A stretch of DNA of 64,000 bases, from NCBI RefSeq assembly GCF_030463535.1, contig NC_132893.1, forward strand, positions 20,072,027 through 20,136,026. The letters run 5' to 3'. Below, piece by piece: positions 3,973-22,211 of this stretch (its first letter is position 1; each line of letters opens with the position of its first letter). The position numbers were made by a program, and so were the translations under genes. The notes beneath the pieces were generated by a model that saw only the letters and a program-made list of their open reading frames with translations, was not told the origin of the DNA and did not search any database. The DNA comes from Salminus brasiliensis. Its lineage: Eukaryota > Chordata > Actinopteri > Characiformes > Bryconidae.

Positions 3973-22211
<18,239 letters not shown>

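Follow-up and report, generated by a model that had tools for sequence, protein, structure and literature searches.

In mammals, the Q/R site in the pore of the kainate receptor subunit GluK1 is edited in only part of the transcripts, so that a copy with fixed Arg, as in the fish gene described here, removes a mixed state. Arg at this site means low conductance. Work by Herb and colleagues in 1996 is said to have found that editing of the mammalian GRIK1 Q/R site needs a distant intron sequence. The mammalian event, Q621R (a table in PMC4053846), concerns the same gene, the same pore residue and the same final amino acid as our fish gene, grik1a, but in mammals Arg arises in RNA, whereas in the Salminus DNA analysed here it is present in the genome. 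Genome-encoded Arg has been described for an AMPA receptor gene, where R is chromosomally encoded in zebrafish gria2-beta and, among more derived teleosts, in both of the gria2 genes, as stated in a part of PMC4018279 that cites Kung et al. 2001 and in keeping with what a preliminary description of the present DNA had said of some teleost GluA2 genes. According to the same part of that paper, the edited Arg is written into the DNA of one zebrafish gria2 duplicate, and its counterpart still has a Gln open to editing; grik1a resembles the former as a teleost glutamate-receptor duplicate with the edited Arg in its DNA. The two systems differ in that the gria2 site is edited to about 99% in healthy brain (passages of PMC10537207) and grik1a is a kainate receptor gene. 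Editing of zebrafish grik2-alpha is reported in the same passages of PMC4018279, which make no mention of grik1, and in passages of PMC4670233 it is zebrafish grik2, not grik1, that is named among the edited genes. In the open-licence literature we found no report of genome-encoded Arg in grik1a, which is weak evidence of absence. The gene joins the known genome-encoded edited states, and offers an unusually clean contrast between ohnologs.

The stretch of DNA analysed, hereafter the window, comprises 64,000 nucleotides of the genome of Salminus brasiliensis, a characiform of the family Bryconidae (NC_132893.1, positions 20,072,027 to 20,136,026, forward strand). Seven in-frame exons located between 3973 and 19404 on the + strand gave a spliced sequence of 1353 nt, i.e. 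451 codons with no stop. They encode the end of the amino-terminal domain and the linker, closing on ...TTIL (3973..4083), the ligand-binding S1 (4177..4380), the end of S1 together with M1 (4680..4903), the pore loop with last residues GVAALMRQ(G) (6238..6356), the end of the pore loop with M3 (15683..15900), S2 (18721..18946), and the end of S2 with M4 (19154..19404). Each exon was placed by its open frame, splice sites and tblastn with Salminus GluK1, and the pore-loop exon, which is flanked by AG and GT, by alignment as well. An intron of 9,326 bases (6357..15682, + strand) follows the pore-loop exon. Two alternative last exons, both on the + strand and both preceded by AG, lie further downstream. 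The first (19723..19857) ends in ...CSSR and a stop and has very similar tails in P0129, P0131 and P0132, while the second (22059..22211) ends in ...RKETMA and a stop and has the same tail in Salminus P0146; both resemble annotated GluK1 tails of characiform fishes. The 3' half of GRIK1 that lies in the window appears intact, the 5' half and most of the amino-terminal domain being located beyond the window edge, and it apparently belongs to a working characiform grik1a. The first codon of the exon at 4680 (4680-4682) encodes Ile; the corresponding residue is Arg in mammalian GluK1 and Lys in GluK2.

The protein encoded in the window matched both PF00060 and PF10613, the ligand-gated channel and glutamate-binding domains, above cut-off. 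Its best PDB match was GluK1 (7lvt, 942.9 bits), followed by scores of 889.3 for the best GluK2 and 853 for the best GluK3, and it grouped with GRIK1 rows in both phylogenetic trees described below. Judged by sequence, the gene is GRIK1 (GluK1), as the preliminary description had named it. Identity was 98.2% with Astyanax P0138 and 100% over 451 aa, Arg included, with the annotated Salminus brasiliensis GluK1 P0146, although this entry perhaps comes from the same assembly as the window and is not an independent read of the Arg.

Other parts of the window were also inspected. A BACH1-like gene, with BTB and bZIP_Maf matches that would fit BACH1, is present on the - strand at 33491-37185, and chaperonin matches on the + strand at 60-63 kb scored 32.8 and 33.8, just below the Pfam cut-off of 34.3, and presumably mark a CCT8-like gene. 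In the human order GRIK1 is located beside BACH1, and the neighbours in the window would fit a GRIK1 locus, with the reservation that the chaperonin matches are sub-cut-off. A coiled-coil-like ORF on the - strand (45401-45640) gave no Pfam match, and our guess is that it is a MAP3K7CL-like gene. The window further carries pieces of a Tc1/mariner-type transposon (46630-47627), whose separate ORFs match Sleeping Beauty HTH and DDE_3, a tRNA-Glu(CTC)-like sequence on the - strand (54685-54757), which may be a tRNA gene or else a SINE derived from a tRNA, and a minisatellite of about ten 50-base units that are 93% alike (30745-31245).

The codon at the Q/R site is AGG (6350-6352, + strand). It is read in the context GCT CTT ATG AGG CAA G followed by gtaag, which translates to ALMRQ(G), and an Arg codon was thereby seen in genomic DNA at the Q/R site in one assembly, that of the window. 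On alignment, this Arg is paired with the leading Gln of MQQG in GluK1 (7lvt) and with the corresponding Gln of GluK2, which is residue 621 by chain numbering; the Q/R site is placed at 621 in passages of the review PMC2694175. A DNA-encoded Arg at the pore Q/R site had been claimed from the letters of this stretch alone. Both parts of the claim were borne out, since the AGG codon stands in an intact pore-loop exon and its Arg aligns with the Gln of the mammalian Q/R site. An edited-transcript artefact, dismissed already in the preliminary description, is out, since A-to-I editing of CAG or CAA never gives AGG. Zebrafish grik1a has Arg as well, with a different codon: grik1a primers given in PMC5255535 translate to VLFVIA and ALMRQGS, with Arg encoded by CGT, and the passages concerned make no comment on the residue. 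AGG and CGT are each at least two base changes away from CAG/CAA, and neither is reachable by A-to-I editing. The Arg codon is known for the window and, via the primer, for zebrafish, and the remaining R calls given below are from protein records.

Protein searches (n=3), from which the best 120 of 2037, 7847 and 7639 matches were taken, yielded a union of 296 distinct proteins. The Q/R site was legible in 291 of these listed proteins, with Q in 206 and R in 85, and was illegible in P0055, P0058, P0078, P0083 and P0106. The 296 listed proteins and the window sequence (297 rows) were used for a FastTree phylogeny from which the columns around the site were omitted. Among the matches listed, the grik1a clade, which holds the window, comprised 93 rows (83 R and 10 Q) and the grik1b clade 35 rows (Q in 32, R in none, 3 illegible), each with a support of 1.0; as rows often represent isoforms of a single gene or close relatives, their numbers do not give numbers of events. 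The grik1a rows with Q were those of salmonids (P0045, P0151, P0202, P0239, P0274), Esox (P0157, P0240, P0243, P0245) and Denticeps (P0190). Since 10 of the 93 grik1a rows have Q, R is not needed in every fish. A second tree was computed with IQ-TREE from 65 chosen rows, i.e. 64 of the 296 proteins and the window, of which 32 had R and 33 had Q. It recovered a clupeocephalan grik1a clade of 36 rows (SH-aLRT 99; R in 31, Q in 5), and 13 rows, all Q, formed a grik1b clade (SH-aLRT 100). In both trees the window sits in the grik1a clade, separate from grik1b. The clade was labelled 'a' because the zebrafish grik1a primer encodes Arg, no zebrafish-named row being picked out in the tree.

Elopomorph rows of the IQ-TREE set were placed beside both ohnologs and all five sampled have Q, as do the rows of Lepisosteus, Acipenser, Latimeria, Xenopus, Pan and Pluvialis in that set. 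Eel and bony-tongue GRIK1 rows among the matches listed are also Q. R was found in grik1a of the sampled ostariophysans (Chanos included), herring relatives, smelt, cod and spiny-rayed fishes. The preliminary description had proposed a comparison with grik1a, grik1b, gar, shark and tetrapods, and this comparison ties Arg to grik1a, while Q is found in all legible grik1b rows and in the retrieved GRIK1 rows of gar, sturgeon, coelacanth and tetrapods. Cartilaginous-fish rows among the matches listed are named GRIK2 or GRIK3 or carry a GRIK2-type pattern. Gln is taken as the ancestral state at the site, since in the 65-row set the grik1b rows have Q, and so do those of gar, sturgeon, coelacanth, tetrapods, bony-tongues and elopomorphs. 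By the same protein records, Arg at the Q/R site is not peculiar to the Salminus genome. Outside grik1a, R occurred in three rows among the matches listed, namely P0086 and P0092, which are GRIK2-type proteins of two Sinocyclocheilus, and P0116, a hagfish GRIK2-like protein. These may be further cases of a hard-coded edited state.

This distribution bears on whether the codon is real. The Arg codon could be an assembly or sequencing error, or the gene a dead copy, and at the level of DNA it was seen in one assembly and with the 3' half of the gene. The intact frame of 451 codons, the two matching last exons and the presence of R in 83 of 93 clade rows make chance or a sequencing oddity very unlikely, and they contradict the suggestion, raised in the preliminary description as what could overturn its reading, that the exon belongs to a non-functional copy. 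A sequencing error or a pseudogene is therefore rejected, and we consider such an origin scarcely credible.

A second difference from mammalian GluK1 lies close by. The codon at 6338-6340, four residues before the Q/R site, encodes Ala, giving VAALM in place of VGALM, exactly as noted earlier from the letters. Ala at this position (-4) was found in 52 of the 291 legible listed proteins, and all 52 of them have R at the Q/R site, while 33 R proteins are without Ala. The carriers are otophysans and herring relatives (P0132 aside), and R is combined with Gly in Chanos, Osmerus, Gadus and spiny-rayed fishes. Since Ala was seen only with R while some R lineages keep Gly, the Ala seems to be later than the Arg, and perhaps arose twice.

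How often Arg was gained in grik1a can be read in two ways. A single gain in grik1a of the clupeocephalan ancestor, with Gln regained later in Denticeps and in the line of salmonids and pike, has not quite an even chance of being correct. R in ostariophysan, herring-relative, smelt, cod and spiny-rayed rows, with Q in the elopomorph rows on the grik1a side, speaks for it. If smelt and spiny-rayed fishes are grouped apart from salmon and pike, a single gain needs about three changes. Against it stand two returns to Gln, of which one concerns Denticeps, the sole denticipitoid sampled, and one extra change if Aplochiton (R) is put with Esox (Q) in Protacanthopterygii, as is done by NCBI. The other reading, of at least three separate gains, in Ostariophysi, in herring relatives and in smelt with spiny-rayed fishes, we hold to be correct with a probability just short of one half. 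It takes the Q of Denticeps, salmonids and pike at face value, and CAG or CAA becomes an Arg codon by a single A-to-G step. The Arg outside grik1a, in the two Sinocyclocheilus GRIK2-type rows and the hagfish GRIK2-like row, is also on its side, but its change count equals that of one gain with two losses, and the two readings are equally probable. On the 65-row gene tree the minimum number of changes was 5, one of which falls on the hagfish GRIK2-like row, with 18 of the 62 inner branches open.

Arg may also have drifted in fish GluK1 as a neutral residue, without selection, if heteromers are dominated by other subunits. The ten grik1a rows of salmonids, pike and Denticeps with Q are what drift would allow, but no third residue was found at the site in the 93 grik1a rows among the matches listed. 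Moreover, AGG and CGT, neither of them a single step from a Gln codon, suggest that Arg persisted through synonymous change, and neutral drift is in our estimate improbable.

The preliminary description had predicted that a gene with fixed Arg has no need for an intronic editing partner, and had suggested a search of the downstream intron for an editing complement. We searched the intron over 6400-15682. The best duplex energy observed in this span was reached in 68 of 200 dinucleotide shuffles, and two sets of 23 coding-segment controls matched or beat it in 11 and 17 cases, respectively. The lowest-energy duplex (12315-12360), though suggestive to the eye, was not significant, and its alignment score was 33 as against the best score of 42. 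When complement alignment was carried out with a 51-nt query, 31 of 200 shuffles and none of 24 coding controls attained the observed score; with an 86-nt query, the shuffles attaining it numbered 93 of 200 and the coding controls 4 of 20. The result of 0/24 is the sole control that leans to a relic, and on its account a weak relic is conceivable. The power of the search was determined by planting random complements, with a threshold of 43.5, at about the 95% point of the shuffles: planted 35-nt complements were recovered in 57 of 60 cases at 80% and in 29 of 60 at 70%. A strong editing complement in the grik1a intron is therefore unlikely, and a weak one is possible. The search of this span agreed with the prediction in so far as no complement rose above chance in shuffles, although a weak complement would often be missed. 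An array of three 62-base units is present within the intron at 10700-10888.

Taken together, the codon, the intact frame and the contrast between the ohnologs very probably reflect a history in which grik1a gained Arg in DNA after the teleost duplication, its codon then drifted synonymously and it became an always-edited subunit, while grik1b kept Gln. Arg would have arisen at the pore Q/R site of grik1a after the teleost genome duplication, and the simplest path would run from CAG/CAA to CGG/CGA and then, by synonymous change, to AGG in the window and CGT in zebrafish. Such a path implies, from these two codons, that Arg stayed while the codon drifted, possibly under selection for R. The grik1a subunit would then be permanently in the state that ADAR editing gives to part of the mammalian GluK1 transcripts, and grik1b, with its Gln, could supply the unedited state, so that the two ohnologs may divide the labour.

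Published work on mammalian subunits provides the basis for predicting how such a channel would behave. GluK1(Q) is polyamine-sensitive and calcium-permeable and edited GluK1(R) is neither (passages of PMC10706347), and kainate receptors formed of edited isoforms only are strongly inhibited by membrane fatty acids (passages of PMC2694175). By analogy, homomers and Arg-rich heteromers of grik1a are predicted to be poorly permeable to calcium and of low conductance, as the preliminary description had also predicted, and to show weak block by polyamines. In heteromers, Gln subunits may mask or dilute the effect of Arg. In zebrafish hair cells, which express grik1a, calcium rises little upon addition of kainate, and the same result was obtained with NMDA (passages of PMC5255535). 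Since NMDA gave the same result as kainate, the small rise fits an Arg pore but does not discriminate. A broader account, which we offer tentatively and regard as rather less than evenly probable, is that grik1a turned permanently edited several times independently while grik1b stayed Gln, with duplication replacing RNA editing as the source of two pore types, and that the Gly-to-Ala change then followed in otophysans and herring relatives.

Why a codon should be edited rather than the edited residue be encoded is an old question. R fixed in one duplicate and Q in the other, beside lineages that have Q in both, constitutes a natural experiment, which bears on whether duplication relieves the need for editing and on the fate of editing in grik1b. 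It bears, as well, on the role of a constantly Arg GluK1 in neurons and hair cells of fish, and zebrafish grik1a may be no simple stand-in for mammalian GluK1 in studies of calcium.
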